31,319 bases of DNA, taken from a virus. Below are positions 1-23,396 of this stretch, in pieces (the stretch's first letter is position 1; each line of letters opens with the position of its first letter). Location of the stretch: the IMG/VR virus record IMGVR_UViG_3300009000_000027, positions 1 to 31,319 of that record; one strand, written 5' to 3'. Made by a program: the position numbers and the translations under genes. The notes beneath the pieces were generated by a model. The model ran no database searches and had not been told where the DNA came from. It saw only the letters and a list, made by a program, of their open reading frames with translations.

Positions 1-3000
1 CCGGTGATTACATTGATCCATTTACTGGCAACTACACCGGTAATTACATTGATCCATTTACCGGTAACTACACTGGTGACTACATTGATCAATTTACGGG
101 CGACTATACTGGCGACTATGTTCGTCCGTTCACGGGTAACTATACTGGCGACTATGTAAGACCCTTCACTGGAAACTATACCGGTAATTACATTGATCCA
201 TATACCGGTGAATATGAAGGTTCATACGAACGACCATTTACCGGTAACTACACTGGTGATTATGTTCGTCCATTTACGGGTAACTACACTGGTGATTATG
301 TTCGTCCATTTACTGGCAATTATACCGGTGATTATCTAAGACCGTTCACAGGAAACTATACGGGTAATTACCTTGTTCCTTATGAAGGAAACTACGAAGG
401 TTCATACGAACGACCATTTACCGGTAACTACACTGGCGACTATGTAAGACCATTTACTGGAAACTATACCGGCGACTATGTCCGACCATTTACGGGTAAC
501 TATACAGGCAACTATCTGGTACCGTATACTGGTGATTATGAGGGGGATTATGCCTCACTCTTTGAAGGAAACTATGAGGGTTCATACGCAGTAGATTATA
601 CCGGAAACTATGAAGGTAACTATGCTGCAAATTATGTGGGTAATTACGAAGGTGATTACAACGCTATTTACGTGGGCGATTACGAACGTACAGATCCCGA
701 ACCATATACAGGTAATTACACACGAGCAGATGCAGAAGGATTTGCTGCGGAGTTCACTGGTTTAGGTGGTGACACGTTTGTTTCTGCTGGTGATTCTTAT
801 CTTGGTGACCCCAACGATGTCGTTATTTCAAGAAACTCTGGTCTATCGCATTGGGTTGCGATGGAGAATGGAACCATCAACTACTCTGTGGTGTACAGTG
901 GTACTCAGATCTTTATAAATGGGTCATCGGTAATAGGCCCAACTTCAGGCCCACAAAGTGGTACATTTTCGGTTACTGCGGGGGATTTGATCAATTCAAA
1001 TGGATTGCCGTTCCACCTATTTGATCAGGCTAATAACCATTTGGTAGTCCCAACTGCGGTGCATGGTCGTGCATTTGGTACATATCAAAACCGATACGAT
1101 TATACACTGTTTTTCTATTCACAAGATGCGGGTACAGTAAACATCTACGAAAATGCTGGTGGTACTGGTGGCATTGGTGGAACACCCACCGACACAGTCA
1201 GTCTGCCTGGTGGTCAGGTAGTGTCATATTTTATCGGAAATTACACAGGTAATTATCATTATTGGACATCGGACGTTGACATAGTATCGTCAGTCACAGG
1301 CATCACTGGTGATAAATTTATCGTACCACCCTTAGCAGACCCTAACGAAAAAGTCTACCGTAGAAGAAGTGCATTTTCTCGTGATGAAAATGGCGGCACT
1401 GTTAACCAGACCAACACATACTGGACATCGGATTCGACACTAAGACACTTTAACATGGAAATTGCAGATGGTTCGGGTGGTGATGCGAACCACGGTCTGC
1501 CCGAAAAATACCTGTCAAACCATTACTCATGGGGTCAGGAACTTAGTGACTTCGCACTTGTAATACCAAACACGGGTTATGTTCGAGTAGAGAGTTGGAA
1601 TGGTTCCGCATGGGTACAACAAGAAGAATTCTTTGCAACCGGTTCTGAATCTAGTCCTACCTATATTTTCCGTGATGGCACAACTGGATTTGGATCACAA
1701 GGTTCAATTATATCTGGTGCCGCCGCAAACTTCAACGCAGATACATTGTGGAGATGGGTAGGTACACAACCATTTTACATTGTTGTTAATGATGTTTCAA
1801 ATGATGAAGAACCTTTGTTAGGTTGGATGGCTGATCTTGAAGATGGTGTGTATGTCGTTGATGACTTTGTAGGGGACTATGGTCGTACCGAAGATCAGAA
1901 CTATCTTGGTAATTATGAAGGTGACTACGCTGCAAATTATGTAGGAAACTATGAGGGTGACTATAACGCAATTTATCAAGGTGAGTATACGGGTGTTCCG
2001 GTTGAACCTTATACCGGTCAATACACGGGAGTACCAATTGAACCCTACACCGGAAACTATACAGGCGTTGCAACCCAACCTTATACTGGTGACTATGGTC
2101 GAATTGATCCTGAAGACTATACCGGTGATTATGAAGGCATTTATGTTTCAATCTTTACCGGTGATTACGAAGGTGATTACAATGCCATTTATGAAGGTCA
2201 GTATACTGGTCAGATAGAACAACCATATACCGGTGAATACACTGGTGTGCCATTACAACCCTATACCGGTAATTACACTGGTGATGATGTCGAACCATAC
2301 ACTGGAGACTATGGACGCATCGACCCCGAACTTTATGTTGGTGAATACGAAGGTGACTACAATGCCATTTATGAAGGTCAGTATGAAGGTGACTATAACG
2401 CAATTTATGAAGGTCAGTACACTGGTCAGGTAGCAGAACCTTATGAAGGTCAATATACTGGTGAACCACTGCAACCCTATACTGGAAACTATACAGGCGT
2501 TGCAACACAACCCTACACTGGCGATTATGGACGAATTGACGACGAACCATATACTGGTGCATATGAAGGAAACTATGCTGGACAGTACACTGGTAATTAC
2601 GAAGGTGATTATAACGCTATTTACGTGGGTGAATACACGGGTACTCTGGAAGAACCATACACCGGTGAATATACAGGTGTTCCAACTGAAACCTACAGTG
2701 GCGATTACACTGGTGATGATGACCAGTTATATGTCGGTGACTATGGTCGTATCGATGATGAGTTGTATACAGGAAACTATGAAGGTGACTACGCTGCAAA
2801 TTACGTAGGAAATTATGAGGGTGACTATAACGCAATCTATGTTGGCGAATACACGGGTACTCTGGAAGAACCATACACCGGTGAATACACTGGCGAACCA
2901 TTACAACCGTACACTGGAAACTATACGGGTGACGATGTCCAACCTTATACCGGTGATTATGGACGCATTGATTCGGAAGACTACACCGGAAACTATGAAG

Positions 3001-5441
3001 GAGACTATAACGCCATCTATGCAGGGGATTACGAAGGTGACTACAATGCGATTTATGAAGGTCAGTACACCGGTGCTCTTGCAGAACCTTATGAAGGTCA
3101 ATACACTGGTGAACCTTTGCAACCTTATACCGGTAATTACACTGGTGATGATGATGAAACATATACGGGTGACTATGGTCGAATAGATCCCGAAAACTAT
3201 ACTGGAGAATACGAAGGTGAGTACATTGCAAATTACACCGGTGATTATGAAGGCAATTACGTAGGAACGTATACCGGTGACTATGGTCGTATTGATCCGG
3301 AACTTTATGTTGGTGAATATGAAGGTAATTACGATGCGATATACATCGGTGATTATGAAAGAACCGATCCTGAACCTTATACGGGTGATTATGCAGGACT
3401 TTACGCTTCGAACTACACTGGTAATTACGAAGGCGACTACAATGCCATTTACGTTGGCGATTATGAACGAAGTGATCCAGAAACATATACCGGTGAATAT
3501 GAAGGTGAGTACGTTGGTCTTTACATTGGTGACTATGGTCGTATCGATGATGAACCCTACACAGGTAATTACGAAGGCGACTATAACGCAATTTATGTTG
3601 GGGAATATTCTAGAGACGATCAAGAACTTTACGTCGGTGATTATGGACGCGAAGACCCCGAAACATACACCGGTGACTACGAAGGCGTTTACATTGGATT
3701 GTATGCCGGTGAATACGAACGTACAGATGACGAACTCTACACCGGTGCTTATGAAGGCATCTATGTTGGAGAATATGTTGGTGACTATGGTCGCATAGAC
3801 CCCGAACTTTACGTCGGTGACTACTCACGTATCGATCCCGAAGATTACACGGGCGACTACTCACGCATTGATCCAGAAGAGTATGCTGGGGATTATTCAC
3901 GAATCGATCCCGAAGATTATACAGGCGATTACGAAGGCGACTACAATGCAATCTACATCGGTGACTATGAACGCACGGATGACGAATTGTATGTGGGTGA
4001 TTATACTGGTGTTTACGCAAGTGTTTATACCGGAGATTACTCACGCATAGATCCCGAAGATTACACCGGAGACTATGAAAGAACAGATCCCGAAGATTAT
4101 ACTGGTAATTACGAAGGTGTTGCTGTAGAAAACTATACGGGCGACTATGAACGCACCGACGATGAACTATATGTGGGCGACTATACCGGAGTCTATGCAA
4201 GTGACTATACGGGTGATTATGAAAGAACCGATCCTGAAGATTATGCCGGAAACTACATTGGTGAAAATGAAGAGTTGTACATCGGAATCTATCAGGGTGT
4301 TGTGACAGAACCCTATGAAGGAAATTATACTGGCGACGATTCCGAATTGTACGTTGGTGAATATACGGGTGTTCTTGAAGAACCTTATACTGGAGATTAT
4401 GAAGGTGTTTACGTTGGTGAATATGAGGGACAATACGAAGGTGTTGTAGAACAACCGTATGAAGGAGATTACGAAGGCGACTACGTTGGTTTGTATGTCG
4501 GTGAATATGAGGGGGACATTGTTGAACCCTATACGGGCGATTACACTGGAGTATATGCCTCTGATTACACAGGAATCTATGCGGGTGTTACTGAAGAGTT
4601 TTATACCGGAAACTACACTGGTATAGAAGAAGAACTCTATACTGGAGATTATGAAGGCATATATTCTGCGGACTATATTGGTGAATATGGTCGCCAAGAA
4701 GAAGAACCTTATACCGGTGAGTATGAGGGTGTTCTTGAGGAACCTTACAGTTCAATATATGCGTCAGAGTATGAAACAGATTATACCGTAGTTTACACAG
4801 GTAATTACGAATCTGATTATGAAGGAACATACACCGGCGATTACGGATCTGCTTACACGGGTGAGTATCAGAGTGATTACACAAGTGCATACACTTCTGA
4901 ATACGAGGCATCGTACACTAGTGAATACACTGGGGATTACGTTGGACTCTATACGTCAACGTATACCGGTGATTATGCTTCCGATTATGAACAGGCATAT
5001 CTTGGAAACTTTATCGGTGACTATAATCCAGATTATGAATCTCAATATGCGGGAGAATACTCTGGTGATTACTCCGGTGATGCATATGTACAAAATTATT
5101 CTTCGGATTTTATTGACAATGAGTACGAAGGCGCGTATAATACAGATTTCGTACCATATTCTGGTAGATATGAAGCGATAGATTTAGAGAATTATGATGG
5201 ACAAAGTTTTGATGATTTCTACATCGGTAACTTTACTGGTAACACATTTGAAGGCGATTATGCATCATCATATACGGAAGATATATATACCGTAGTATAC
5301 CAAGCCGAATATCAGGGTGAGGACATTGAAGAGACGTATGTAGGAAACTACGTCGGTGAACTGACCTATGGTCAAGGTGGTAAGTTGTTGGATGCACCTA
5401 CCACTATTGAAACATACACATTATATGTAAGGACTGCTTAA
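1..5441 (+). CDS. Giant tyrosine-rich tetrad-repeat virion/fibre-like protein (5' end outside window)
   Basis: The reading frame is open from the first full codon (position 3), so the gene starts upstream; the GTG at 636 is an internal valine codon. In the window 1812 residues are coded, ending at TAA 5439-5441. Nearly all of it is a four-residue repeat with Tyr/Phe at position 1 and usually Gly at position 3 (YTGD, YTGN, YEGD, YVGE), alternating with eight-residue units such as YGRIDPEL or YTGVPVEP. The register stays a multiple of four codons throughout, except for a non-repetitive domain (about 762-1865) and slips near the C-terminus. It is very acidic and aromatic, with almost no Cys. The last ~70 residues lose the pattern and may be a cap. 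No signal peptide or membrane segment is visible in this part. The location in a T4-like late region suggests a virion fibre or adhesin; this is inference. I do not recognise a named family. The next gene's ATG overlaps the stop by one base. Confidence 0.9.
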   Translation, partial: GDYIDPFTGNYTGNYIDPFTGNYTGDYIDQFTGDYTGDYVRPFTGNYTGDYVRPFTGNYTGNYIDPYTGEYEGSYERPFTGNYTGDYVRPFTGNYTGDYVRPFTGNYTGDYLRPFTGNYTGNYLVPYEGNYEGSYERPFTGNYTGDYVRPFTGNYTGDYVRPFTGNYTGNYLVPYTGDYEGDYASLFEGNYEGSYAVDYTGNYEGNYAANYVGNYEGDYNAIYVGDYERTDPEPYTGNYTRADAEGFAAEFTGLGGDTFVSAGDSYLGDPNDVVISRNSGLSHWVAMENGTINYSVVYSGTQIFINGSSVIGPTSGPQSGTFSVTAGDLINSNGLPFHLFDQANNHLVVPTAVHGRAFGTYQNRYDYTLFFYSQDAGTVNIYENAGGTGGIGGTPTDTVSLPGGQVVSYFIGNYTGNYHYWTSDVDIVSSVTGITGDKFIVPPLADPNEKVYRRRSAFSRDENGGTVNQTNTYWTSDSTLRHFNMEIADGSGGDANHGLPEKYLSNHYSWGQELSDFALVIPNTGYVRVESWNGSAWVQQEEFFATGSESSPTYIFRDGTTGFGSQGSIISGAAANFNADTLWRWVGTQPFYIVVNDVSNDEEPLLGWMADLEDGVYVVDDFVGDYGRTEDQNYLGNYEGDYAANYVGNYEGDYNAIYQGEYTGVPVEPYTGQYTGVPIEPYTGNYTGVATQPYTGDYGRIDPEDYTGDYEGIYVSIFTGDYEGDYNAIYEGQYTGQIEQPYTGEYTGVPLQPYTGNYTGDDVEPYTGDYGRIDPELYVGEYEGDYNAIYEGQYEGDYNAIYEGQYTGQVAEPYEGQYTGEPLQPYTGNYTGVATQPYTGDYGRIDDEPYTGAYEGNYAGQYTGNYEGDYNAIYVGEYTGTLEEPYTGEYTGVPTETYSGDYTGDDDQLYVGDYGRIDDELYTGNYEGDYAANYVGNYEGDYNAIYVGEYTGTLEEPYTGEYTGEPLQPYTGNYTGDDVQPYTGDYGRIDSEDYTGNYEGDYNAIYAGDYEGDYNAIYEGQYTGALAEPYEGQYTGEPLQPYTGNYTGDDDETYTGDYGRIDPENYTGEYEGEYIANYTGDYEGNYVGTYTGDYGRIDPELYVGEYEGNYDAIYIGDYERTDPEPYTGDYAGLYASNYTGNYEGDYNAIYVGDYERSDPETYTGEYEGEYVGLYIGDYGRIDDEPYTGNYEGDYNAIYVGEYSRDDQELYVGDYGREDPETYTGDYEGVYIGLYAGEYERTDDELYTGAYEGIYVGEYVGDYGRIDPELYVGDYSRIDPEDYTGDYSRIDPEEYAGDYSRIDPEDYTGDYEGDYNAIYIGDYERTDDELYVGDYTGVYASVYTGDYSRIDPEDYTGDYERTDPEDYTGNYEGVAVENYTGDYERTDDELYVGDYTGVYASDYTGDYERTDPEDYAGNYIGENEELYIGIYQGVVTEPYEGNYTGDDSELYVGEYTGVLEEPYTGDYEGVYVGEYEGQYEGVVEQPYEGDYEGDYVGLYVGEYEGDIVEPYTGDYTGVYASDYTGIYAGVTEEFYTGNYTGIEEELYTGDYEGIYSADYIGEYGRQEEEPYTGEYEGVLEEPYSSIYASEYETDYTVVYTGNYESDYEGTYTGDYGSAYTGEYQSDYTSAYTSEYEASYTSEYTGDYVGLYTSTYTGDYASDYEQAYLGNFIGDYNPDYESQYAGEYSGDYSGDAYVQNYSSDFIDNEYEGAYNTDFVPYSGRYEAIDLENYDGQSFDDFYIGNFTGNTFEGDYASSYTEDIYTVVYQAEYQGEDIEETYVGNYVGELTYGQGGKLLDAPTTIETYTLYVRTA
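3..760 (+). repeat. Tetrad repeat array, N-terminal block (12-residue / 36-bp cycle)
   Basis: About 63 consecutive four-codon units in frame. Much of the block follows a 12-residue cycle of the form YTGDYVRPFTGN, with variants containing IDP, LVP and ERP. Synonymous codons vary freely between copies (ACC/ACT/ACA/ACG for Thr; GGT/GGC/GGA for Gly), so the protein repeat is stricter than the DNA repeat. It is coding sequence, not an intergenic array. Confidence 0.92.
762..1865 (+). other. Non-repetitive globular domain inserted in the tetrad-repeat protein
   Basis: About 368 residues without the tetrad pattern, rich in Ser, Gly, Asn, Trp and beta-forming residues. It contains several similar strand-like stretches, for example DKFIVPPL, FALVIPNTGYVRVESW and FYIVVND. 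The tetrad register is kept on both sides (FAAEFTG before, DDFVGDYGR after), so it looks like a module inserted into or projecting from the repeat scaffold. It resembles beta-rich adhesin domains of marine phage fibres in general character only; I cannot name a family. Boundaries are approximate. Confidence 0.7.
1866..5080 (+). repeat. Tetrad repeat array, main block
   Basis: About 268 consecutive four-codon units. They mix simple tetrads (YTGD, YEGD, YNAI, YVGE) with eight-residue units in which the second aromatic is replaced (YGRIDPEL, YERTDPEP, YTGVPLQP, YTGDDVEP). YEGDYNAIY recurs many times in the first two thirds. Towards the end, Ser/Ala-containing tetrads (YTSE, YASD, YESD) dominate. 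Near 5080 a GDAYVQNY segment adds one residue and breaks the register. Confidence 0.92.
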
Positions 5442-5911
5442 TGAGTTATAAAATTTTAGATAATGCCTACTGGGAAGACGGTATCGACGACCGTTCGGTT
5501 TTAAAATGTATACGAATGCATGATGAACCTGGCGGAAAACAACGAAAGGAGATCATTAACTTCTCTAGATTGCTTCCGGATCGTTCTCTATGCCCTCAAT
5601 ATAAAGAAGTGGTATCGGTGGTTGGTCAAAAGAGAATCGATGATAATACCACAGAACGTCGCAAAAGAAAAGCGATGGAACAAAAAACGGGTGCAATCAA
5701 AAAGGAACAACAGCAGAAGACTCAGATGTTGGAGAAACTTTTCGCGTTGAAACTTCAAGCATTCGAAATTCCCGAAATCCGTGATAGTACGAACAAGAAA
5801 CTCCGAACCAAACTGCGGCGAGCACAAAATGAAATAGAAATGAATGCCTACGCAACGTTGCTCATTGGTATGGAGAATGGTATATTTAAAGAGGATGATA
5901 AGAGTGAGTGA
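5441..5911 (+). CDS. Conserved basic coiled-coil-like protein of T4-like marine phages
   Basis: 156 aa. The ATG overlaps the previous stop (TAATG), with TAAGGA at 5428-5433 as a well placed ribosome site. The N-terminus (SYKILDNAYWEDGIDDRSVL) resembles a hypothetical protein I associate from memory with T4-like marine phages, placed near structural genes. Residues ~65-140 are rich in Lys, Arg, Glu and Gln (ERRKRKAMEQKTG, KKEQQQKTQMLEKL) and look helical, probably coiled coil. No catalytic motif is visible. Its position between the tetrad-repeat fibre and the glycosyltransferase, with overlapping junctions on both sides, would fit a fibre assembly or chaperone role, but that is inference from context only. 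Confidence 0.85.
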   Translation: MSYKILDNAYWEDGIDDRSVLKCIRMHDEPGGKQRKEIINFSRLLPDRSLCPQYKEVVSVVGQKRIDDNTTERRKRKAMEQKTGAIKKEQQQKTQMLEKLFALKLQAFEIPEIRDSTNKKLRTKLRRAQNEIEMNAYATLLIGMENGIFKEDDKSE

Positions 5912-6668
5912 ACCAACAAAGGGATTTGTCGTTGTCGCGTCAAGGAAAAAATTCTTTTATTTGTCTGCACTCAATCTAATCGAGTCAGTACAAGATTTTT
6001 ATCCCGAAGCAAAGTTCTGTCTAGTGACCGAAGAGAGATTTCTAGACGAACGTGGACGATCTGTTGCTGATCAAATTATTTTATGTGATGATCATAAACG
6101 TGCAAAGATATGGGGTATGGCAAGATCACCATACGATTTAACATTCTACATTGACGCAGATACCGAATGTGAACATGAAGATATCGCAAAAGTATTTGAC
6201 TTATTTAACGGACATGATATACTATTCACGGGACTTCCACCCGAACGCCACTATTGTTATGCCGAAGTCTTTTTTCCTGGCGCTACAAAACCCGATGGTT
6301 CAAGAGGTGGATTTGAATTGTGTGGGGGTGTGTGTCTCTATGACATGAGAAACGAACTGGTACGTGACTTTATGCACGATTGGTTTGATCTTACTGTCGA
6401 ACAATATTCTGGTCGATGGTGGCCAAAAGATGAGAATGGAAACGAAGATTTACACAATTATCCTCCGTCTTTTAAAAGATGGGATCAGTTTTCGTTGTGG
6501 TGGTTGGTCAACAAGGAACCAAAATACCAAGAACTAAAAGTTGGTATTATGGAAGATGATGCACGATGGAATTATTATTCAAAGTATAAAGCACACCTTC
6601 AACACAACAAAGAACCAGTTGTTATACGACACTATTCTTCAGCAAGTGCGAAGCAAGGGGTGTATTAG
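5904..6668 (+). CDS. GT-A-type glycosyltransferase-like protein (nucleotide-diphospho-sugar transferase)
   Basis: 254 aa from the GTG at 5904. This start overlaps the previous gene by 8 bases and has AGAGG (5890-5894) at 9-base spacing. ATG 5895 is a possible alternative; the in-frame ATG at 5844 lies deep in the previous gene and is unlikely. The N-terminus GFVVVASRKKFFYLSALNL fits a Rossmann-like beta-alpha start. LTFYIDADTE (residues ~79-88) supplies the D84-A-D86 motif typical of metal-dependent GT-A sugar transferases. Downstream, GGFELCGGVCLYD and the RWDQFSLWWL segment resemble acceptor-site and C-terminal regions of such enzymes. It would transfer a sugar from a nucleotide-sugar to an unknown acceptor. 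Lying between the fibre gene and the oxygenase gene, it may act on a virion protein. The substrate is unknown. Confidence 0.85.
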   Translation: MSEPTKGFVVVASRKKFFYLSALNLIESVQDFYPEAKFCLVTEERFLDERGRSVADQIILCDDHKRAKIWGMARSPYDLTFYIDADTECEHEDIAKVFDLFNGHDILFTGLPPERHYCYAEVFFPGATKPDGSRGGFELCGGVCLYDMRNELVRDFMHDWFDLTVEQYSGRWWPKDENGNEDLHNYPPSFKRWDQFSLWWLVNKEPKYQELKVGIMEDDARWNYYSKYKAHLQHNKEPVVIRHYSSASAKQGVY

Positions 6669-7352
6669 ATGATAATGAAAGACATTCCATTAAACGATTA
6701 TGCAGTTGAAATTCTCAACGATACTCTCTGGTTACTCGAAGACGATCATTACAAATCTGTTCACATGAATGGTCAGAAAGTCTATAACAAAGAAAGTGCA
6801 GATTATTATACGAGCAATGCATACTTTGAAAAGATACGAAACATGGGAACTACTCATGATGGTTATCCTGAAAGGTTTGCTGCATACTCGTTCGGAAGTA
6901 ATGGAATGAACTTTCATAAAGATGCCGGTCATGTCGCAGATGAAGCGGCACAACGCATATTTAAATTTTATGAAAAGATTCAAACACAACTCAATCTGAA
7001 AAAGAACGCATTGTTTAGTATCTACCCGCCGGGTGGTTTTATTGCATGGCATAATAATGCAAATGCCTCTGCGTATAATTTTATCTTCACATACAGTGAA
7101 ACCGGTGACGGTTACTGGAGACACTATGATCCAGTGAAGAAAGAAATGGTCACTATACCAGATGTGAAAGGGTGGCAATGTAAAGCAGGATACTTTGGTG
7201 CATATCATGATGGAGTTGATAAGATCGTATATCACACTGCAAGGAATACGAGTCAAACTGGTCTGCGAATGACCGTTGCATTTGTTATGGATCGTTCTGA
7301 GATGTCATCTGGAATACAAGATTGGGTAATTGAAGATATTCGTGCTGAATAA
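6669..7352 (+). CDS. 2OG-Fe(II) oxygenase-like protein
   Basis: 227 aa; ATG follows the glycosyltransferase stop directly (TAG-ATG), with AAGGGG at 6655-6660 as ribosome site. The C-terminal half reads like a double-stranded beta-helix oxygenase: SIYPPGGFIAWHNN (H128), FTYSETGDGYWRHYDP, then KIVYHTARN (H189) and GLRMTVAFVM (R200), which fits the second metal His and the 2-oxoglutarate-binding Arg. The residue two after H128 is Asn130, not the usual Asp/Glu, so the metal triad is atypical. Similar proteins occur in T4-like marine phages by my recollection. Expected reaction: 2-oxoglutarate- and O2-dependent hydroxylation of a protein or small molecule. Translational coupling to the glycosyltransferase suggests they work on one substrate. 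TATAAATA directly after the stop begins a new transcription unit. Confidence 0.8.
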   Translation: MIMKDIPLNDYAVEILNDTLWLLEDDHYKSVHMNGQKVYNKESADYYTSNAYFEKIRNMGTTHDGYPERFAAYSFGSNGMNFHKDAGHVADEAAQRIFKFYEKIQTQLNLKKNALFSIYPPGGFIAWHNNANASAYNFIFTYSETGDGYWRHYDPVKKEMVTIPDVKGWQCKAGYFGAYHDGVDKIVYHTARNTSQTGLRMTVAFVMDRSEMSSGIQDWVIEDIRAE

Positions 7353-11291: not shown

Positions 11292-14200
11292 ATGGCGCAG
11301 AAACGGTTATCACAGTTAAGTGGAAAGATAAGAACACGGGCGTTTAGTCGTCTCGATTCTGATCGTTACACTTTTCTCAATCTAGAACAGGCAGAACCCA
11401 ATGCGGGTTTGCCTGCGGACAGTGGTGGCCTATTTCAATCTGCATTAGACGGTACACGTAGTTTCACAAGTAGTCCAAGTTTGCGGGGTCTCTTCTTTCA
11501 AGCAGACACCCTTGACTCTACAATTGGAAACGATCGATACGTTCTTAGTGTCAATGATCCTTATAATCAAGAAAGTCCCGTTGGACTTATCAGTATTGCA
11601 GAACTATTGGGAGACAGTGGTTTTGCGACGGATGACTTACAAGCAGTAACAGAAGCAGGTAATATCACCACACTTCCTATTACAACGGGTGGTCTTGCAC
11701 TTACGTTTGTCGACAGTAATCCAAACTCAGCTACACTTCTTGTCTTAGACTTATTAACAGATAGTGTTGGTAAAAGGTCATTTGCTTCCCTTGCAGATGA
11801 TGCAGGTCTTATTTCTCAGGGTGATGCAATTCAGGCAGGTGGTCTGTCAATCACTCAGGTCGACAGTGATCCAGACACTCAGACAGTCCTTGTCATTAAT
11901 GAACTCACAGACAGTGTGGGCAAAAGATCATTTGAATCTCTCGCTGATGACCTTGGATTGATTAAACAAGGTGATCGAATTGACGCTAGTGGTCTAACCC
12001 TACAGACAGACAGTGATCCAGACACACAGATTGTTCTTGTACAAGATTTACTCACCGACTCTGTAGGCAAACGTTCGTTCCAATCACTTGCAAACGAAGC
12101 AGGATTCATTCAACAAGGTGATCCTATTGTCGCTGGTGGACTCACTCTTACTGTTGCAGATAGTGATCCATTTTCACTCACAGTACTTGTTAAAGATTTA
12201 CAAACCGACTCAGTAGGCATTCGGTCGTTTGAGTCTCTTGCAGACGATCTTGGATTGATCAAACAGGGTGACCGAATCGAGGCAAGTGGACTTACCTTAC
12301 AAGCAGATAGTTCAGATGACCTAACAGTTCTTACAATAGACCTTGTCACCGATTCAGTCGGAAAGCGTTCATTCGAATCTCTCGCTGATGCCCTTGGGTT
12401 GATTCAGCAGGGTGATCAGATCAATGCTGGTGGTTTAACACTGACAACCGATAGTTCTGATGATCTCACAGTATTGACCGTTGATCTTGCCACAGACAGT
12501 GTTGGCAAAAGATCGTTTGAGTCTCTTGCGGATGATCTTGGTTTAATCAAACAAGGTGATCGAATTGACGCCAGTGGATTAACTCTTACCACTGATAGCG
12601 ATTCCTCTACAACCGTTCTGGTTATTGATCTATTAACAGACAGTGTTGGTAAAAGGTCTTTCCAAGATCTCGCCGAAGAAGCGAACCTAATTCAACAAGG
12701 AGATCGAATCGTTGCTGGTGGTTTACAGATCACCATTGCAGACTCCGACTCCGACACGAATCAGATTCTCGTATTAAACTTAGAGACTGACTCCGTAGGC
12801 ATTCGTTCCTTTGGTGATCTTGCGGATGAAGCGGATCTTATTCGTCAGGGTGATAGGGTTGATGCGGGCGGATTAACTCTTGTTACAGATAGTTCAGATG
12901 ATCTGACTGTCCTCACGATTGATCTTCAAACGGACTCCGTAGGTAAACGATCATTTGAATCATTGGCGGAAGAATTAGGATTAATTCAACAGGGTGATCA
13001 GATCAATGCCAGTGGTCTAACTTTACAGACTGACAGTGATCCAAACTCTCTAACAGTATTGGTACAGGATCTTCAAACAGATTCAGTAGGAAAAAGATCG
13101 TTCGAATCTCTTGCAGATGATCTAGGACTGATTAAACAAGGCGATCGAATTGACGCTAGTGGATTAACTCTTACTACTGATAGCGACTCTTCTGCGACAG
13201 TTCTTGTTATTGATTTGCTTACTGATTCTGTTGGTAAGAGATCTTTCCAAGACCTTGCTGAAGAAGCAAACCTTATTCAACAGGGCGACCGCATCGTTGC
13301 GGGTGGTTTGCAAATTACTGTGGCGGACTCCGATTCCGACACAAACCAAATACTCGTTCTAAATCTTGAAACCGACAGTGTTGGTATTCGTGCGTTTGGT
13401 GATCTTGCGGATGAAGCGGGATTAATTAAACAAGGCGATATCATTAATGCCGGTGGATTGACTTTAGTTGCTGATAGTTCGGACGACTTGACGGTTCTCA
13501 CCATAGATCTCCTTACGGATTCGGTTGGTAAGAGATCGTTTGAATCTCTTGCGGACGACTTGGGTCTGATTAAACAAGGTGATCGAATCGACGCAAGTGG
13601 TCTGACATTGGCAGCGGATTCTGATTCGGATACAAACCAAGTACTTGTAATCGATCTATTGACAGATAGTGTTGGCAAACGGTCGTTCCAAGATCTTGCG
13701 GAAGACGCAAATCTGATCCAACAAGGAGATAAGATTGTCGCAGGCGGTCTACAGATTACCGTGGCAGATTCCGACTCCGACACGAATCAGATACTTGTTC
13801 TTAATCTTGAGACGGATTCGGTAGGAATTCGAGCATTTGGTGATCTTGCGGATGAAGCAGGATTAATTAAACAAGGCGATATTATCAATGCGGGTGGTCT
13901 GAATCTAGTTGCGGATTCCGACTCTGACACCAACCAAATCCTCGTACTTAATCTTGAGACGGATTCAGTAGGTATTCGTGCATTCGGTGATCTTGCTGAT
14001 GAAGCCGGTCTGATTCGACAGGGTGATATTATCAATGCGGGTGGTTTATTACTTACTGCCGACAGTGACTCCGAGTCAACAAGCCTTCTTGTACTGAATC
14101 TCGAAACCGACAGTGTTGGTATTAGGAACTTTGCGACCCTCGCAGAAGAAGCGGGTTTAGGTGCAGATACTCTTCAGATCGTTACTGATCGAGGTGACTC

Positions 14201-14696
14201 AACAAATCGCAATATTACGATTTCAGGTTTGTCAATCACCAATATTGATAGCGATGATACCACAGATCAACTTTTAGTTCTGAACCTCACTACAGACTCC
14301 GTAGGTATTCGGTCGTTTGCACAACTTGCAGAACAAGCGGGTGTGGGTGAGGATACACTTCAATCCGTTACGGAACGAGGTGACTCTACCGATCGTGCAA
14401 TTAACCTCAAACAAGGTTTGACAATCAACAACTTGCCGGTTGATAATCTAACCACCACGGTTCTGGTTCTTACCGGTGAGGATAGTGTTGCGATTCGAGA
14501 GTTTGCGTCACTAGATGCCACAGTACAAGAGACATTACAGACTGTTACGGAACGCGGTGATAGTACGGACAGAGATATTCTCATACGCAACTCTTTGACT
14601 GCGGATTCGGTAAAAGCATCGGTTGGTTTCTTTGACACAAATAATATTCAACTTATCATCTATGATTCCGCAGGGTCAATACTCTGGGGTGCATAA
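11292..14696 (+). CDS. Long tandem-repeat virion/fibre-like protein (16 copies of a ~49-aa unit)
   Basis: 1134 aa. The N-terminal ~115 residues are unique (MAQKRLSQLSGKIRTRAF, then RYVLSVNDPYN). Residues ~160-942 are 16 head-to-tail units of 48-50 residues with consensus G(K/I)RSF-x-x-LA(D/E)-x-x-x-LI-x-QGD-x-I-x-A(G/S)GL-x-L, a DSD-rich turn, then VLV-x-(D/N)L-x-TDSV. Three further degenerate units follow containing TERGDSTDR. The C-terminus (VKASVGFFDTNNIQLIIYD) could be a tip domain. The unit suggests an elongated beta-rich stalk; Asp-rich turns might bind Ca2+, which is inference. No strong ribosome site is visible (TTAATTAA before the ATG), so translation may be coupled to the previous gene 4 bases upstream. 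I recognise no named family. Confidence 0.88.
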   Translation: MAQKRLSQLSGKIRTRAFSRLDSDRYTFLNLEQAEPNAGLPADSGGLFQSALDGTRSFTSSPSLRGLFFQADTLDSTIGNDRYVLSVNDPYNQESPVGLISIAELLGDSGFATDDLQAVTEAGNITTLPITTGGLALTFVDSNPNSATLLVLDLLTDSVGKRSFASLADDAGLISQGDAIQAGGLSITQVDSDPDTQTVLVINELTDSVGKRSFESLADDLGLIKQGDRIDASGLTLQTDSDPDTQIVLVQDLLTDSVGKRSFQSLANEAGFIQQGDPIVAGGLTLTVADSDPFSLTVLVKDLQTDSVGIRSFESLADDLGLIKQGDRIEASGLTLQADSSDDLTVLTIDLVTDSVGKRSFESLADALGLIQQGDQINAGGLTLTTDSSDDLTVLTVDLATDSVGKRSFESLADDLGLIKQGDRIDASGLTLTTDSDSSTTVLVIDLLTDSVGKRSFQDLAEEANLIQQGDRIVAGGLQITIADSDSDTNQILVLNLETDSVGIRSFGDLADEADLIRQGDRVDAGGLTLVTDSSDDLTVLTIDLQTDSVGKRSFESLAEELGLIQQGDQINASGLTLQTDSDPNSLTVLVQDLQTDSVGKRSFESLADDLGLIKQGDRIDASGLTLTTDSDSSATVLVIDLLTDSVGKRSFQDLAEEANLIQQGDRIVAGGLQITVADSDSDTNQILVLNLETDSVGIRAFGDLADEAGLIKQGDIINAGGLTLVADSSDDLTVLTIDLLTDSVGKRSFESLADDLGLIKQGDRIDASGLTLAADSDSDTNQVLVIDLLTDSVGKRSFQDLAEDANLIQQGDKIVAGGLQITVADSDSDTNQILVLNLETDSVGIRAFGDLADEAGLIKQGDIINAGGLNLVADSDSDTNQILVLNLETDSVGIRAFGDLADEAGLIRQGDIINAGGLLLTADSDSESTSLLVLNLETDSVGIRNFATLAEEAGLGADTLQIVTDRGDSTNRNITISGLSITNIDSDDTTDQLLVLNLTTDSVGIRSFAQLAEQAGVGEDTLQSVTERGDSTDRAINLKQGLTINNLPVDNLTTTVLVLTGEDSVAIREFASLDATVQETLQTVTERGDSTDRDILIRNSLTADSVKASVGFFDTNNIQLIIYDSAGSILWGA
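11769..14117 (+). repeat. 16 tandem ~49-codon repeats
   Basis: Units are counted from each Gly of G(K/I)R-S/A-F to the next: 2349 bases over 16 units (mean 48.9 codons). Units fall into types that recur in the fixed order A-B-C: units 6-8 (12504-12941), 10-12 (13089-13526) and 13-15 (13527-13970). A has FESLADDLGLIKQ, B has FQDLAE(E/D)ANLIQQ, C has FGDLADEA(D/G)LI. This indicates duplication of three-unit blocks. Confidence 0.9.
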
Positions 14697-15480: not shown

Positions 15481-16353
15481 ATGGCGACTAATCTTTACTT
15501 TACACAGGGAACACTAAACGAACAGACACTCTACGAGGATATCGTAATCGAATCCTTGAAGATGTATGGTCAGGATGTGTATTATATTCCCCGTGAAATT
15601 GTCAATCGAGACGGCATCTTCCAAGATGATTCGGTCTCTCGTTTTGACAACGCATATCGTATCGAAATGTACATCGAGAATATCGATGGATTCGATGGTG
15701 AGGGCGATCTTTTCACCAAGTTTGGAGTAGAGATTAGAGATGCTGCCACCTTTGTGGTCGCACGTCGACGATGGCATAACACAGTATCTCTTTATGAAAA
15801 CGAAGAAGAGACTCCGTTCTATCGTCCCCGTGAAGGCGATCTCATCTATCTTCCATTGTCAGGTTCCATGTTCCAGATACAACGAGTGGAAACCGAAGAA
15901 CCATTTTATCAGTTAAAGAATCTACCCATCTTCAAAATGCGTTGTGAGTTGTTTGAATACAACGATGAAGATTTTGATACTGGAGTGGACACGATTGATG
16001 TGGTTGAGAAGAACCATGCCTATCAGAATGTTCTTACAGTTGGATCAAACCTATCGTTTGACGAAGGAGAGGCAGTACGTCAGGTCAATTCGACATTCAC
16101 CATTACCGGTGAGGTGGTCAAATATGACGAACCCAATGGTCTTCTTTATCTTGCACACTCTGCGGCATCTGACGGGAATTACCACGATTGGACAACGGTC
16201 GCGCCGGTTGAAGGACTCACCAATGGGGAATCAGTCACACCCACACAGGTAGGTGAAGATCTACAAGAGAGTACACAGAATGCAGACTTCGATACGATTG
16301 GAGATGGATTCGTGGACTTCTCTGAAAGTAATCCGTTTGGAGATCCACAGTAA
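15481..16353 (+). CDS. 14: Neck protein gp14
   Basis: 290 aa, three bases after the gp13 stop, with GGGA at 15471-15474. The N-terminus (NEQTLYEDIVIESLKMYGQD, then YYIPREIVN) and the central RRRWH / EGDLIYLPLSGSMFQI segments fit T4-like gp14, the gp13 partner in the neck. The order 13-14-15 supports it. Residues ~195-290 are an acidic, partly beta-rich C-terminal part ending NPFGDPQ. The stop codon overlaps the gp15 start by one base (TAATG), indicating coupled translation. Confidence 0.9.
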   Translation: MATNLYFTQGTLNEQTLYEDIVIESLKMYGQDVYYIPREIVNRDGIFQDDSVSRFDNAYRIEMYIENIDGFDGEGDLFTKFGVEIRDAATFVVARRRWHNTVSLYENEEETPFYRPREGDLIYLPLSGSMFQIQRVETEEPFYQLKNLPIFKMRCELFEYNDEDFDTGVDTIDVVEKNHAYQNVLTVGSNLSFDEGEAVRQVNSTFTITGEVVKYDEPNGLLYLAHSAASDGNYHDWTTVAPVEGLTNGESVTPTQVGEDLQESTQNADFDTIGDGFVDFSESNPFGDPQ

Positions 16354-17624
16354 TGTTTGGCACTCATTTTTATCATCAACGAATACGAACTGCTGTCGCA
16401 GTCTTTGGATCTCTTTTTAATAATATAAAGATTGTTCGAAAGAATTCCAGTGGTGGGGGTGTCAGTCAGGTCAAGGTGCCTCTTTCTTACGCACCTAAGA
16501 GAGACTTCATCGCACGTCTTGATGCCATGGCAGATGGAGAAAATGCGGAACGTCAGATCGCAGTCAAACTGCCACGTATGTCGTTTGAGATTGTTGCGAT
16601 GAACTATGATGCACAACGACAGTTGCCTAAGACGAACAGTTGTCGTATACCATCGACTTATGGTAATGCGACAGAGATTTACACTCCAGTACCCTACAAT
16701 ATAAACTTTCAGTTGAACGTTTATGCACGTGGTCAGGATGATGCATTACAGATCGTAGAACAAATTCTACCTTATTTCACTCCAGCATACACACTGACAA
16801 CAAAACCGTTGAGTGACTTTGAGGGTATCAAAGAAGACACTCCGATTACAATGCAAGGCATTACGTTTTCAGATGATTTTGAGGCGACACTAGAACAGCG
16901 TCGAACCGTTATCTACACTCTTGATTTCGAAATGAAAATCATGATGTACAAGGCAACGGGAACACCTCAACCAGTTATTACACAATACGATGTGGAAAAT
17001 GCAGACCTCAACGGGAATGTGTTTTTCCAGACAGCAGACAGTGCCGCATCGGTTACTAAAGGTCTTTCAACATCTACATCCGAAGACACTGCGGTCTCTA
17101 CAGATTTCCAAGCATACAATGTGCCACTTACAACACACGGACTTCGACTTGGAGACTCTGCATCTAATGGTGAAGTGAGTGTAGTATACACCAAACGATT
17201 GGTTTCTGCAAGCGGAATTGTAGTGGCACAAGGTACACATACATACACTCCAGATGCAAACTTCAATGGAGTAGATCAGTATACTTTAGAAATATTGTAC
17301 GGTGATTCTGCAAATCCAAGTACAATTGAAAAGACTGTTAATGTTACAATTGGTGCAGTACAGGATGTGGTGTCTACCTCACTTGGGCCGTTTGCATTGA
17401 CCGTAGGTGTCGCAGATATTAGAGACGTTTCTAGTAATGATCCATTCACAAGTCCAACATACAGTATTGTAAGTAATGGTTCATTAGGTAATGCTATAAT
17501 TAGTGCAAGTGGTCTTGTGACATATGATCCACAATTTGCAGGAACGGACACTGTAACGTATGGCGTTACACCTTCAGGTGGTACAAGAGAGAACGTTACG
17601 ATAACCTATAACAACAGCGTATAA
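16353..17624 (+). CDS. 15: Tail completion / sheath stabiliser gp15 with two C-terminal Ig/cadherin-like domains
   Basis: 423 aa. Residues 1-~200 match T4-like gp15, which caps the tail tube and sheath and joins tail to neck: MFGTHFYHQRIRTAVAVFGS, LFNNIKI, VKVPLSYAPKRDF, DDALQIVEQILPYF and the closing TLDFEMKIMMY. T4 gp15 is about 272 aa; this one carries ~180 extra residues. The extension holds two repeats of the kind found in bacterial adhesins: residues ~243-335 with HTYTPDANFNGVDQYTL, and ~340-423 with GLVTYDPQFAGTDTVTY. Such Ig/cadherin-like domains usually decorate surfaces or bind glycans. TGGAG (16338-16342) precedes the start. Decoration of the neck is inferred. The extension is in frame with no sign of frameshift. 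Confidence 0.9.
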   Translation: MFGTHFYHQRIRTAVAVFGSLFNNIKIVRKNSSGGGVSQVKVPLSYAPKRDFIARLDAMADGENAERQIAVKLPRMSFEIVAMNYDAQRQLPKTNSCRIPSTYGNATEIYTPVPYNINFQLNVYARGQDDALQIVEQILPYFTPAYTLTTKPLSDFEGIKEDTPITMQGITFSDDFEATLEQRRTVIYTLDFEMKIMMYKATGTPQPVITQYDVENADLNGNVFFQTADSAASVTKGLSTSTSEDTAVSTDFQAYNVPLTTHGLRLGDSASNGEVSVVYTKRLVSASGIVVAQGTHTYTPDANFNGVDQYTLEILYGDSANPSTIEKTVNVTIGAVQDVVSTSLGPFALTVGVADIRDVSSNDPFTSPTYSIVSNGSLGNAIISASGLVTYDPQFAGTDTVTYGVTPSGGTRENVTITYNNSV

Positions 17625-19658: not shown

Positions 19659-22600
19659 ATGCATAATAATTTTTTGGACAAAAGACGTAGAAATCTACGT
19701 TTACAACCTGATCAGGTAGAACTTGTTTTACCGGAACACTTCGCTGCGTCTTATCCAAAATTCGTTAGTCTTCTCAAGTTCTATTATGATTTTCAGAATG
19801 AAGAGAAAGCAACCGAACTGTTAAATCATCTCTTTGCAGCACGGGATATTACCGAAACAGATATAGAATTACTTTCGTACATTGAGGATGAGTTACTTTT
19901 GGGTGACGCATACTTCGAAAGTTTCGCAACTGGTGAAGCACAGAAGCGTGCCGCTGCAAACTTCTCAAATACTCTATTTCGTTCAAAGGGAACACCATTT
20001 GCAATTCAGTGGTTTTTCCGTTCGTTCTACGGTCTTGATGCTGAAGTAACAGAAACCAAAAATAATGTGTTCATTGTTGGTGAACAAGAATCAACAATAG
20101 GTACCAACTCTCTCAAGTATATCACAGATGATAAACTTTATCAAACATTTGCGTATCTAATTCGTACAGAAATTCCTATTTCTAAATGGGGTGAACTATT
20201 TAAACTGTTCGTGCATCCCGCAGGAATGTATCTTGGTGCCTCATTGTTGGTAGAAGATGAAGTTTTAGATCGTCTCTTTACCGAAGATTCGGATGTGACA
20301 ATTAGCACAAGAACTTCTCCCACGTGGGCAACGACGGTTTCACCCTCATCATCGGCGTCAGAAGGTACAGATTTCACAATCACACTAACTGGTACTAATG
20401 CACTAGACACTCAATATCGATACTATCTGGATACAGAAAATTCAACATCTGTGGACGATTTCGACATTAGTGGAACATTCCCCGATTCAACAAATAAACA
20501 AGAGTTTTTGTTGTCGGGTGGAACCGCTGATGTTGTCATACCAACATCAATAGATTTCGATGAAGGTGAAGGGACGGAAACGTTTTCAATATATTTTGAA
20601 GACCAAGAAGGACGTGCTCTTGCAAACACTCAAATAAGTCTTACTGATATTGTATCAACCTACACGTTGACTGCAAGTGACACTAATCCAAATGAAGGTG
20701 ATATAGTCACAGTTGATGTTGCCGGAACCAATGTTCCAAACGACGGAAACACTACACTATATTGGTGGATCGATCCAACTTCAATAGGTGATTCAAACTT
20801 TGTTTATCCAAATCCATATCCTCGGCAGTCAAGTGCATCACCGGTGGTTCTTACATCTAGCAATGGAACAATTGAATTTAGGACAAGGGTTGACAACGAT
20901 GGTAGTGGACATATTTTTGATTTAAAACTTCAAACAGAACCAACGGGTGGAATTCAAAAGGCGACACAAGCATTTACTGTAAGTGACGTGATACCAACGT
21001 TCAAATTTGGTAGTCCTACCGCAGCGGATAATGTTTTTGATAACCGTGACATTCTGGTGACCGAAGGGGATGATATTACTGTAAGACTACAGATTGACTC
21101 TACCACTATTGGCGAGACCGTGCGGTATGACATCTTTACTAGTGACACAAGAATTCAAACAACCAGTGGTGAATTTGTCACCACAGACATTGACGAAATA
21201 TACACGCTTTCCGGCACATTAACTACAGATGTCTATGACAGTGTCTCCAGTACATATCAATTAAGAACATTGTCTGTCTCTGATTCTGATGGTTATTTTA
21301 ATCCCATTATATCTGACACTAAGGTATTGAAACTAGGAAGTCTATCCCCCACGTTTAGTGTTTCGCCAGATCAAACGGGTCTGGGTGAAGGGGATACTGT
21401 TCGATTCGATATTACCGGAACTAACATTCAAGACGGAAACTCTGCGAAGTACTATATCAGTCATGGAACGACAGATGATGCAGACTTCTCTGTTGCACCA
21501 CCTACATCTGTAGGCACTGCACAGAATCTTAATTTTACTGATGACTCCGCAAATGTGTCATTTACTTTCGCATCTAACACTGATACGGACGATGCTGCAA
21601 ACGAAGACTTTACTTTAAAAATTATAGATCTGGATGATGTTGAAGTTGCTTCTATTTCGTATACCATTTTGGGTGCTAACACTTACTCAATCACTACGCC
21701 TGCGGGTGTTGATGAAAATAATGCTTCTGTAGTCGCTACATTTACCACAGACGATGATGATGGCACTTACTACTATTACGTAGAAGGAACCAATATCACT
21801 TCTGATGATTTTATCTCTGGTTATGCAAGTAGTGGAGCGAGAGGAACATTCACTGTATCAAGTGGAGAAGGCGACATTGAAGTTGTTACCAAAGCAGATT
21901 TAAGACGTGAACTAAACCCTGAAAACTTCAAAATATATGTTTCTGCGGATGCGTCTTCAGGCGTTCTTACATCAACAGGCGATATCGCTATCTCAGACAC
22001 TTCATTGCCAAGTTACACAGTGACTATGTCTGATATTACCGAAGGTCAAGCTCTGAATGCGATTGTTTCAAGTAATTCACCGATTGCAGAAAGCATTTAC
22101 GTTAATTTCAAAACAATATCGGGCGATTCAGTAGGGTTTGGTGATGATACCCCCTTACCTCAAAACGTAAGTTCTGCATTAGGGTCAAAAAGTTTTGTGA
22201 CAACGACTCCGGTTACGAGTGTTGCCGAGGGTGATCGAACAGTACAGGCTACTGCACATGTTAATAGTTACACCGGTGTATTGGTGGGAACTGCTACTGC
22301 AACTGTTTCTGATGCCACTCCCTCATATACCTTAACAACCAACAAGACGAGCGATTCTGCAAATGAGGGTGACACGATTCAGTTTACCTTTGGTGGTTCA
22401 AACGTACCGTCTGATACGTACTACTATAGACTTTCTGATATTAAACCAAAACTTTACGGAACTAATGTACAAACGAATGCGATTGAAAATAGTAACATTT
22501 ATTTAACCGCATCCATCACAGATCTTTCAAATCTTTCGACCGGAATGGAAGTTCGTGGATTCGATATTGAAAATTATTTTGACAGTGAAGCAACCATCTC

Positions 22601-23396
22601 AGTTATCTCAGACGTTTCAAGTGGATATGATCTGATACAAATGTCAGAAAATGCTTCAGGAACTCTTGTTTACACTGCACCAAAACTGGCATATTTTGCA
22701 TTACCTCAAGTGTGGGAAGACTTTGTTGGTTCTGGTTTAGGTGGTAGTGGAGCACCTTATGGTAGTTTTAGTTACACTTCTGGTTCAACTGCGACGTTCA
22801 ATTTGAGTGTTGCGGATACGCCCGATGTTGTAGATCCAGCGACAACGACTTATGTAATGGAAGTTGCAACAGCACCGTCAGGTTCTGCTTTAGTGAACCG
22901 ATCATTTACAATTTATGATGGCGACGAAGATCCAACTCCAAATGTTCAACGTGGTAATTTGACAGATCCGGATAGTTTTAGTTCTCAGACTAGAGGTGTT
23001 GATGCATTTTGTACAATCACATTTAAATCCAACGCTGAGATTGAAACTGAAACGGAATTTCTTGTTGGAGGTTCTACAGTAACCGATCAGGGGGATTGGG
23101 TCGATGACACTGGAGTCAATTTCACCAACTCTGAATTTGAAATAACTGCAACTCTAGTATCTTCTACTGGTAGTTCAGGAGATGTTGTTGGTGACTTTGG
23201 TGTAGATGCGACATTAAATACGAATCAGGTTTGGTATGTTGTTGCAGATTTACCAAGCACTGAAGGATCTACAAACATCTTTTCAGCAGAGATTGAGTTT
23301 ACTATTCGTGAAATTGCAAATCCGTCCGTAAATACAACTACATTTACTGTGGATTTGACTTCGAGTTCGTATCTGCCACCTGAAAGAGATTTCTGA
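19659..23396 (+). CDS. Large baseplate/virion protein with stacked Calx-beta/Ig-like domains
   Basis: 1245 aa. Residues 1-~205 form an alpha-rich head (LRLQPDQVELVLPEHFAASY, FRSKGTPFAIQWFFRSFYGL) that resembles structural proteins of T4-like marine phages. Then follow about seven ~110-aa beta domains starting near residues 220, 334, 447, 564, 675, 784 and 888. Each has an E-G-D/E-x-V motif early on (SASEGTDFTITLTGTN, NPNEGDIVTVDVAGTN, GLGEGDTVRFDITGTN, SANEGDTIQFTFGGSN) and ends in an (A/I)SD-type linker, as in Calx-beta domains, which often bind Ca2+. The seventh is longer. A different domain starts near 1099. No strong ribosome site precedes the ATG. Probably a virion adhesin or baseplate-attached fibre. 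Confidence 0.88.
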   Translation: MHNNFLDKRRRNLRLQPDQVELVLPEHFAASYPKFVSLLKFYYDFQNEEKATELLNHLFAARDITETDIELLSYIEDELLLGDAYFESFATGEAQKRAAANFSNTLFRSKGTPFAIQWFFRSFYGLDAEVTETKNNVFIVGEQESTIGTNSLKYITDDKLYQTFAYLIRTEIPISKWGELFKLFVHPAGMYLGASLLVEDEVLDRLFTEDSDVTISTRTSPTWATTVSPSSSASEGTDFTITLTGTNALDTQYRYYLDTENSTSVDDFDISGTFPDSTNKQEFLLSGGTADVVIPTSIDFDEGEGTETFSIYFEDQEGRALANTQISLTDIVSTYTLTASDTNPNEGDIVTVDVAGTNVPNDGNTTLYWWIDPTSIGDSNFVYPNPYPRQSSASPVVLTSSNGTIEFRTRVDNDGSGHIFDLKLQTEPTGGIQKATQAFTVSDVIPTFKFGSPTAADNVFDNRDILVTEGDDITVRLQIDSTTIGETVRYDIFTSDTRIQTTSGEFVTTDIDEIYTLSGTLTTDVYDSVSSTYQLRTLSVSDSDGYFNPIISDTKVLKLGSLSPTFSVSPDQTGLGEGDTVRFDITGTNIQDGNSAKYYISHGTTDDADFSVAPPTSVGTAQNLNFTDDSANVSFTFASNTDTDDAANEDFTLKIIDLDDVEVASISYTILGANTYSITTPAGVDENNASVVATFTTDDDDGTYYYYVEGTNITSDDFISGYASSGARGTFTVSSGEGDIEVVTKADLRRELNPENFKIYVSADASSGVLTSTGDIAISDTSLPSYTVTMSDITEGQALNAIVSSNSPIAESIYVNFKTISGDSVGFGDDTPLPQNVSSALGSKSFVTTTPVTSVAEGDRTVQATAHVNSYTGVLVGTATATVSDATPSYTLTTNKTSDSANEGDTIQFTFGGSNVPSDTYYYRLSDIKPKLYGTNVQTNAIENSNIYLTASITDLSNLSTGMEVRGFDIENYFDSEATISVISDVSSGYDLIQMSENASGTLVYTAPKLAYFALPQVWEDFVGSGLGGSGAPYGSFSYTSGSTATFNLSVADTPDVVDPATTTYVMEVATAPSGSALVNRSFTIYDGDEDPTPNVQRGNLTDPDSFSSQTRGVDAFCTITFKSNAEIETETEFLVGGSTVTDQGDWVDDTGVNFTNSEFEITATLVSSTGSSGDVVGDFGVDATLNTNQVWYVVADLPSTEGSTNIFSAEIEFTIREIANPSVNTTTFTVDLTSSSYLPPERDF

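Follow-up and report, generated by a model that had tools for sequence, protein, structure and literature searches.

The fibres of bacteriophages are a known kind of structure. In T4-type phages, the long, short and L-shaped tail fibres are linear trimers whose C-terminal tips are distal, and the intertwined β-helix found in the tail spike of T4 (gp5 C-terminal part) and in VgrG is based on an 8-residue V-x-G repeat, in which Gly recurs together with β-branched or turn residues. A composition rich in Tyr and Gly, combined with short strand-turn repeats, is a property of resilin and of the cross-β silk of lacewing egg stalks. Among GenBank phages, the one relative of the protein described here is CDS0201 of C48C1 (GenBank OQ984149, Kyanoviridae), a 3347-residue 'hypothetical protein' that was found by tblastn and pattern searches. 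A marine T4-like virus, the cyanophage S-RIM2, encodes a 'structural protein' (SWTG_00067) with a period-4 x-T-G-N (VTGN) repeat, which matches the gp5/VgrG β-helix weakly. In pelagimyophages, the interval from VrlC to gp14 has been described as a host recognition cluster (PMC7029224).

The stretch of DNA analyzed here (the window) is an entire IMG/VR record of 31,319 bases. An open frame at 3..5441 on the plus strand (frame 3) encodes 1812 residues before a stop codon at 5439-5441 and runs off the left edge of the window. As the record ends at that edge, the 5' end of the gene and the base domain that it encodes in relatives are missing here. The frame and the three genes that follow it are composed as follows.

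3..734, plus strand: repeat block A (residues 1-244), made of dodecads exemplified by FTGNYTGDYVRP and cut by the left edge
720..1877, plus strand: inserted modular domain (residues ~240-625), non-repetitive and, in the AlphaFold model, β-rich
1863..5060, plus strand: repeat block B (residues 621-1686), a series of dodecapeptides in register with one another, Y-x-G-(D/N)-Y-x-(G/R)-x-x-x-x-x
5061..5405, plus strand: C-terminal segment with a degenerate repeat, alignable among close relatives
5406..5438, plus strand: putative C-terminal closing strand IETYTLYVRTA (residues 1802-1812), which resembles the strand that ends base repeat 2 in relatives
5441..5911, plus strand: companion gene 1, encoding a charged protein of 156 residues and immediately following the fibre gene in every relative that could be tested
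5904..6668, plus strand: companion gene 2, glycosyltransferase-like by eye (DADTE and GGVCLYDMR stretches)
6669..7352, plus strand: companion gene 3, 2OG-Fe(II)-oxygenase-like by eye (WHNN...YH-x10-R)

The Tyr/Gly repeat is real and far beyond chance. Over the whole frame, 294 of the 340 gaps between one Tyr or Phe and the next are multiples of 4, compared with a mean of 60.6 (sd 7.1) and never more than 83 when these residues were shuffled 2000 times, and the gaps are of 4 or 8 residues in 58 of 58 cases in block A and in 213 of 215 in block B. An earlier note on this DNA had described more than 330 Tyr/Phe tetrads running through at least 1812 residues, with aromatics spaced by 4 or 8 residues up to about base 5080. 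The length of the frame and the spacing in both blocks bear out this description, the phase ending near residue 1686 (base ~5060), but residues ~245-620 (bases ~735-1862), between the blocks, are non-repetitive and devoid of any 4-residue phase. The tetrads had also been overcounted: there are 60 in block A and 266 in block B, ~273 of them with Tyr or Phe at position 1, and [YF]xGx occurs 207 times in the protein.

The tetrad, taken by the same note as the unit, is a sub-period of a dodecapeptide. Autocorrelation is strongest at 12, 24 and 36 residues, and the three successive tetrads of the block B dodecad are occupied by an aromatic residue in 100%, 100% and 41% of cases and by Gly in 97%, 68% and 8%. 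At the DNA level, the periods detected by TRF include 36, 180, 216 and 432 nt. Both Tyr codons (TAC/TAT, 105/153) and all four Gly codons (GGT/GGC/GGA/GGG, 121/32/45/7) are used; that silent sites vary while the amino acids are kept argues for selection on the protein rather than for fresh duplication alone. With a net charge of -296, the protein is strongly acidic. The argument that an extended strand would place the aromatic and Gly residues on one face holds, as nearly all spacings are even; positions 2 and 4 are mainly T/E/V and D/N/E, respectively.

Profile searches, which the note had proposed as a way to detect a known repeat family, gave no match for the repeat in Pfam, PHROG or PDB sequences, and the 1812-residue protein (P0001) hit 0 PHROG families; known phage tail-fibre families are thus unmatched. 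FeoB-like Pfam and PDB matches to residues 1363-1410 (E 0.14-0.3) were judged to be due to chance. The period was correctly said to differ from those of collagen, pentapeptide and RTX repeats: Gly is found at positions 3 and 7 of 12 rather than at every third residue, there is neither a 5-residue period nor a 9-residue Gly/Asp period, and none of the three families is matched in Pfam. Similarly, a period of 12 without PDB match sets the window's repeat apart from the gp5/VgrG β-helix. The Tyr/Gly elastomers and silks are not homologous to the phage protein, which, in contrast to them, has conserved ends, and T4-type fibres share with it their genomic place and a probable role in host recognition, with no sequence match. 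As for SWTG_00067 of S-RIM2, it gives tblastn matches to block A (E ~1e-11), but these fall on the VTGN repeats, which have aliphatic in place of aromatic residues; its ends are not homologous, with no common base domain or C-terminal strand seen, and it was rejected as a homologue. Its gene neighbours are also different, so that the likeness is probably convergent. C48C1 CDS0201, on the other hand, has a 12-residue Tyr/Gly shaft, inserted domains, the C-terminus ETYTLYVRVA, the downstream trio of genes and a base domain homologous to that of the family. It differs from the window's protein by its Arg-rich, basic shaft and by its other inserted domains.

The domain that separates the two blocks is predicted by AlphaFold to be β-rich (pLDDT ~90). 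It has no confident match in the PDB; the best Foldseek E value is 0.009 at a TM score of ~0.1, and weak jelly-roll or CBM6-like matches (1o8p, probability 0.57) give only a hint of its possible character. It is found once or twice along the shafts of three relatives (L013, L018 and L045), carries a further insertion in the shaft of L019, and is also free-standing in other viral contigs, some of them 164-167 kb long. We infer a role in surface binding for this domain. In L114-L126 it lies within short separate proteins, the C-terminal segment of some of which is LamG-like by eye.

The 1812-residue frame is probably the C-terminal part of a giant putative adhesion fibre of uncultivated T4-type viruses. 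The N-termini of its relatives align with each other, and the base domain that they form is encoded in at least 183 IMG/VR stretches (131 in an earlier search). C48C1 is the one GenBank phage that has it; none was found in the genome_contigs collection, and the base domain matches 0 PHROG families, the family being unmatched in both Pfam and PHROGs. Its members are 495-4484 residues long. Sixty-eight distinct base modules were gathered, 31 of them in complete frames of 495-3150 residues; C48C1 CDS0201 and the G001 protein are longer. In G001 (L019/L023) the gene is entire and encodes 4484 residues, with 43 matches to the window's repeat. The gene is incomplete in the close relatives L011/L018 and L012/L013, and distant members may be short (590 residues in L021, 1117 in L022). 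Most shafts of the family are made of the Tyr/Gly unit, whose Tyr and Gly skeleton is kept across clades with the remaining positions free. A few members (L053, 10001-18010; L055, 9992-16363; L057) have a different repeat, FIDNIDYIDN with spacings of 6 and 10, on the same base, which indicates that the shaft is exchangeable. Tandem pairs of fibre genes, both with a base domain, precede the companion trio in L088, L092, L104, L060, L073, L152, L153, L155 and others, and might possibly form heteromeric fibres. No such protein was found in the equivalent region of HTVC008M, Melnitz or Mosig, nor does any of the cultured pelagiphages and methylophages examined have the fibre family. Literature searches on C48C1, on the YTGNY, tetrapeptide and Tyr-rich repeats and on giant proteins yielded nothing on it. 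The giant phage fibre or adhesin proteins form a family that is real, large and unnamed, with a repeat that is new to the databases searched.

Complete members have in common the N-terminal base domain and a C-terminal [YWF]TLYxR strand. The base domain (AlphaFold pLDDT ~95) consists of three related repeats of ~85 residues, of which repeats 2 and 3 are homologous (hhalign probability 96.7%, E 3e-10) and repeats 1 and 3 match weakly (probability 75%); Foldseek searches with it against the PDB and BFVD returned nothing below E 0.2. In the AlphaFold model of the short member L088, residues 1-255 (pLDDT mostly 90-97) form three helix-plus-hairpin units, the first two with a hairpin of their own and the third without its last strand, and the last ten residues of the protein form a strand of pLDDT 96, ~200 low-confidence residues away from the base. 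Such a base domain could be combined with the C-terminal peptide ETIETYTLYVRTA. With a profile of the last strand of repeat 2, for which the window was left out, the window's C-terminus, IETYTLYVR, ranks 1 of 1804 positions. Of 30 proteins, 17 have their own C-terminus as the top-ranked site, and another three, which carry an extra C-terminal domain, have the closing-strand motif top-ranked at an internal site. In 30 of the 31 complete members, as in the window, the motif [YWF]TLYxR is placed at a distance of exactly 8 residues from the C-terminus, while in the complete members the stretch that precedes it varies from 218 to 2715 residues. The similarity spans 9 residues only, and joining the strand to repeat 3 brought almost no gain in hhalign score (52.3 vs. 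52.2 without it). An uninterrupted ('empty') third repeat was found in none of the members searched (68 base modules, 31 complete frames).

A conserved strand that is similar to that of base repeat 2, has a fixed place and is modelled as ordered suggests that the shaft, of 218 to ~4000 residues, is probably a loop anchored at both ends. Given the models, the simplest reading is probably that the C-terminal strand closes unit 3, the shaft being an insertion in the hairpin loop of that unit; strand swapping between subunits would look identical to closure within one subunit. Since the window is devoid of the base domain, the closed loop is argued from its relatives. This layout is absent from the databases and the literature searched.

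Downstream of the fibre gene, the window encodes gp13, gp14, gp15, the small and large terminase subunits, sheath, tube and portal, in that order (PHROG/Pfam), which corresponds to the tail module of Kyanoviridae-type T4-like phages. Its portal protein is most similar to that of C48C1 (66% identity), with ~52% identity to those of Methylophilales, Synechococcus and Pelagibacter phages. In G001, a VrlC homologue is encoded directly upstream of the fibre gene (BLASTP pieces down to E 2e-52 against VrlC of HTVC008M), and the genes of the fibre family lie in the host-recognition cluster, on the downstream side of VrlC whenever the latter is seen. No psbA was found in C48C1 or in 13 related contigs, so that a cyanobacterial host is without support. 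The companion trio follows the fibre gene in fixed order in 28 of 28 distinct testable relatives, as well as in the window; not part of this count are 14 cases, each the first gene of a tandem fibre pair for which the available DNA stops short. The product of companion gene 1 is suspected to be an assembly chaperone. The product of companion gene 2 has no significant match in Pfam or the PDB, and that of companion gene 3 has none in Pfam, nor was hhalign to annotated phage oxygenases significant; as the likenesses to GT-A glycosyltransferases and 2OG-Fe(II) oxygenases were noted by eye, without support from profile searches, they are offered as inference only. In the profile searches with the companion genes, hits to two WD40-type chains were confined to 43 residues and were put down to chance.

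Several other genes of the window encode proteins with repeats or extensions. The 1134-residue protein encoded at 11292-14696 is made of ~49-residue repeats (..LTDSVGKRSFESLADDLGLIKQGDRIDASGLTL..), and the homologues at the corresponding place have 393 to 1134 residues, which indicates that the number of repeats varies strongly. The tail sheath stabilizer gp15 (16353-17624) has a C-terminal Ig/cadherin-like extension (PF16724 and PF17963), the 1245-residue protein at 19659-23396 combines a baseplate-wedge-like match near its N-terminus (PF23786) with a long region of repeats that are Ig- or Calx-β-like by eye, and a collagen-like fibre protein is encoded directly after the portal gene (29488-30564).

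On balance, these data are best explained if the window's frame represents the C-terminal 1812 residues of a giant fibre or adhesin of a T4-like (Kyanoviridae-type) myovirus, docked by its base, with its shaft as a closed loop and assisted by the trio. The base domain would dock on the tail or baseplate, and the C-terminal strand would complete the third repeat of its own base, or that of a neighbouring subunit, such that the whole shaft, inserted in a hairpin loop, would project as a closed loop. The Tyr/Gly units would either fold into short β strands that turn at G-(D/N) or act as a flexible tether studded with Tyr; the shaft would hold the modular domains away from the tail for contact with the host cell, and the companion trio may help the fibre to fold or modify it. 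In its most specific form, this proposal depicts a giant loop of up to ~4000 residues of in-register 12-residue Tyr/Gly β units, sometimes with modular binding domains, set in the hairpin of a new-fold three-repeat base. Both ends of the chain would be at the virion, and three dedicated companion genes would serve to fold or modify the fibre; in that form it is put forward tentatively, as somewhat short of probable.

A shaft without order would be compatible with either a looped or a linear layout. The single-chain structure prediction proposed in the earlier note gave a confident fold for the inserted domain but not for the shaft, which has pLDDT values of 22-46 in both AlphaFold monomer models (window and L088). 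Disorder is thus possible, in which case the shaft would be a flexible leash or a sticky brush without a regular fold, like Tyr-rich elastomeric proteins. Values below 50 in both models, a charge-hydropathy balance on the disordered side and a net charge that differs by clade (-16 per 100 residues in the window, +4 to +10 in the C48C1 clade) speak for it, but obligate oligomers and shallow alignments commonly give low pLDDT as well. A multiple-of-4 register maintained through more than 1000 diverged residues speaks for an ordered shaft, although duplication of a 36-nt unit could also keep the register, and β structure is consistent with the even spacing and with the conserved G-(D/N) pairs. 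In the window's model, low-confidence strands of 10 residues are linked by two-residue turns at the G-D or G-Q of the dodecad, which fits the near-invariant Gly and the mostly Asp or Asn residues at dodecad positions 3-4, but this strand-and-turn geometry is only a hint. A disordered or elastic tether is therefore plausible, if doubtful. The proposal of an undescribed fibre architecture survives in that nothing in Pfam, PHROG or the PDB matches the repeat and that gene position and relatives fit a fibre or adhesin; a single strict tetrad ladder along the whole chain has to be abandoned, given the dodecad unit, the interruption by a modular domain and the lack of a confident monomer fold for the shaft.

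The ordinary layout for a phage fibre would be linear, with the N-terminal base on the baseplate, a trimeric β shaft made of the new repeat and the C-terminal strand at the distal tip or in a trimerization (foldon) element. It is the default, conserved C-termini often are tip or trimerization elements, and the position of the gene is equally consistent with it. It appears unlikely, however, as the C-terminal motif is similar to a strand of the base itself, reaches a pLDDT of 96 in a model where the base is its sole ordered partner, and hardly varies, although tips are normally the most variable part. Should the protein be produced in infected cells to coat or aggregate the hosts without being part of the virion, the enzyme-like appearance, by eye, of the companion genes would be accounted for; the location of the gene between VrlC and the neck genes, beside those for L-shaped tail fibre assembly and tail fibres, makes this quite improbable. 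Lastly, breaks inside the repeat in the window and two close relatives are expected when repeats stop assembly, but uninterrupted frames of up to 4485 residues in independent contigs and in one complete genome, together with the conserved ends, leave hardly any likelihood that a low-complexity region gave rise to an artefact of assembly or frameshifting.

If the closed loop is true, this fibre design is unlike the linear trimeric fibres of phages in that the chain returns to its own base, so that the length of the shaft would be free to change, from 218 to ~4000 residues, with both ends undisturbed. If demonstrated, such a layout would be new in a categorical sense. The simple repeat unit lends itself to expression and to trials as a protein material, and a protein family of at least 183 viral contig stretches gains borders and neighbours.
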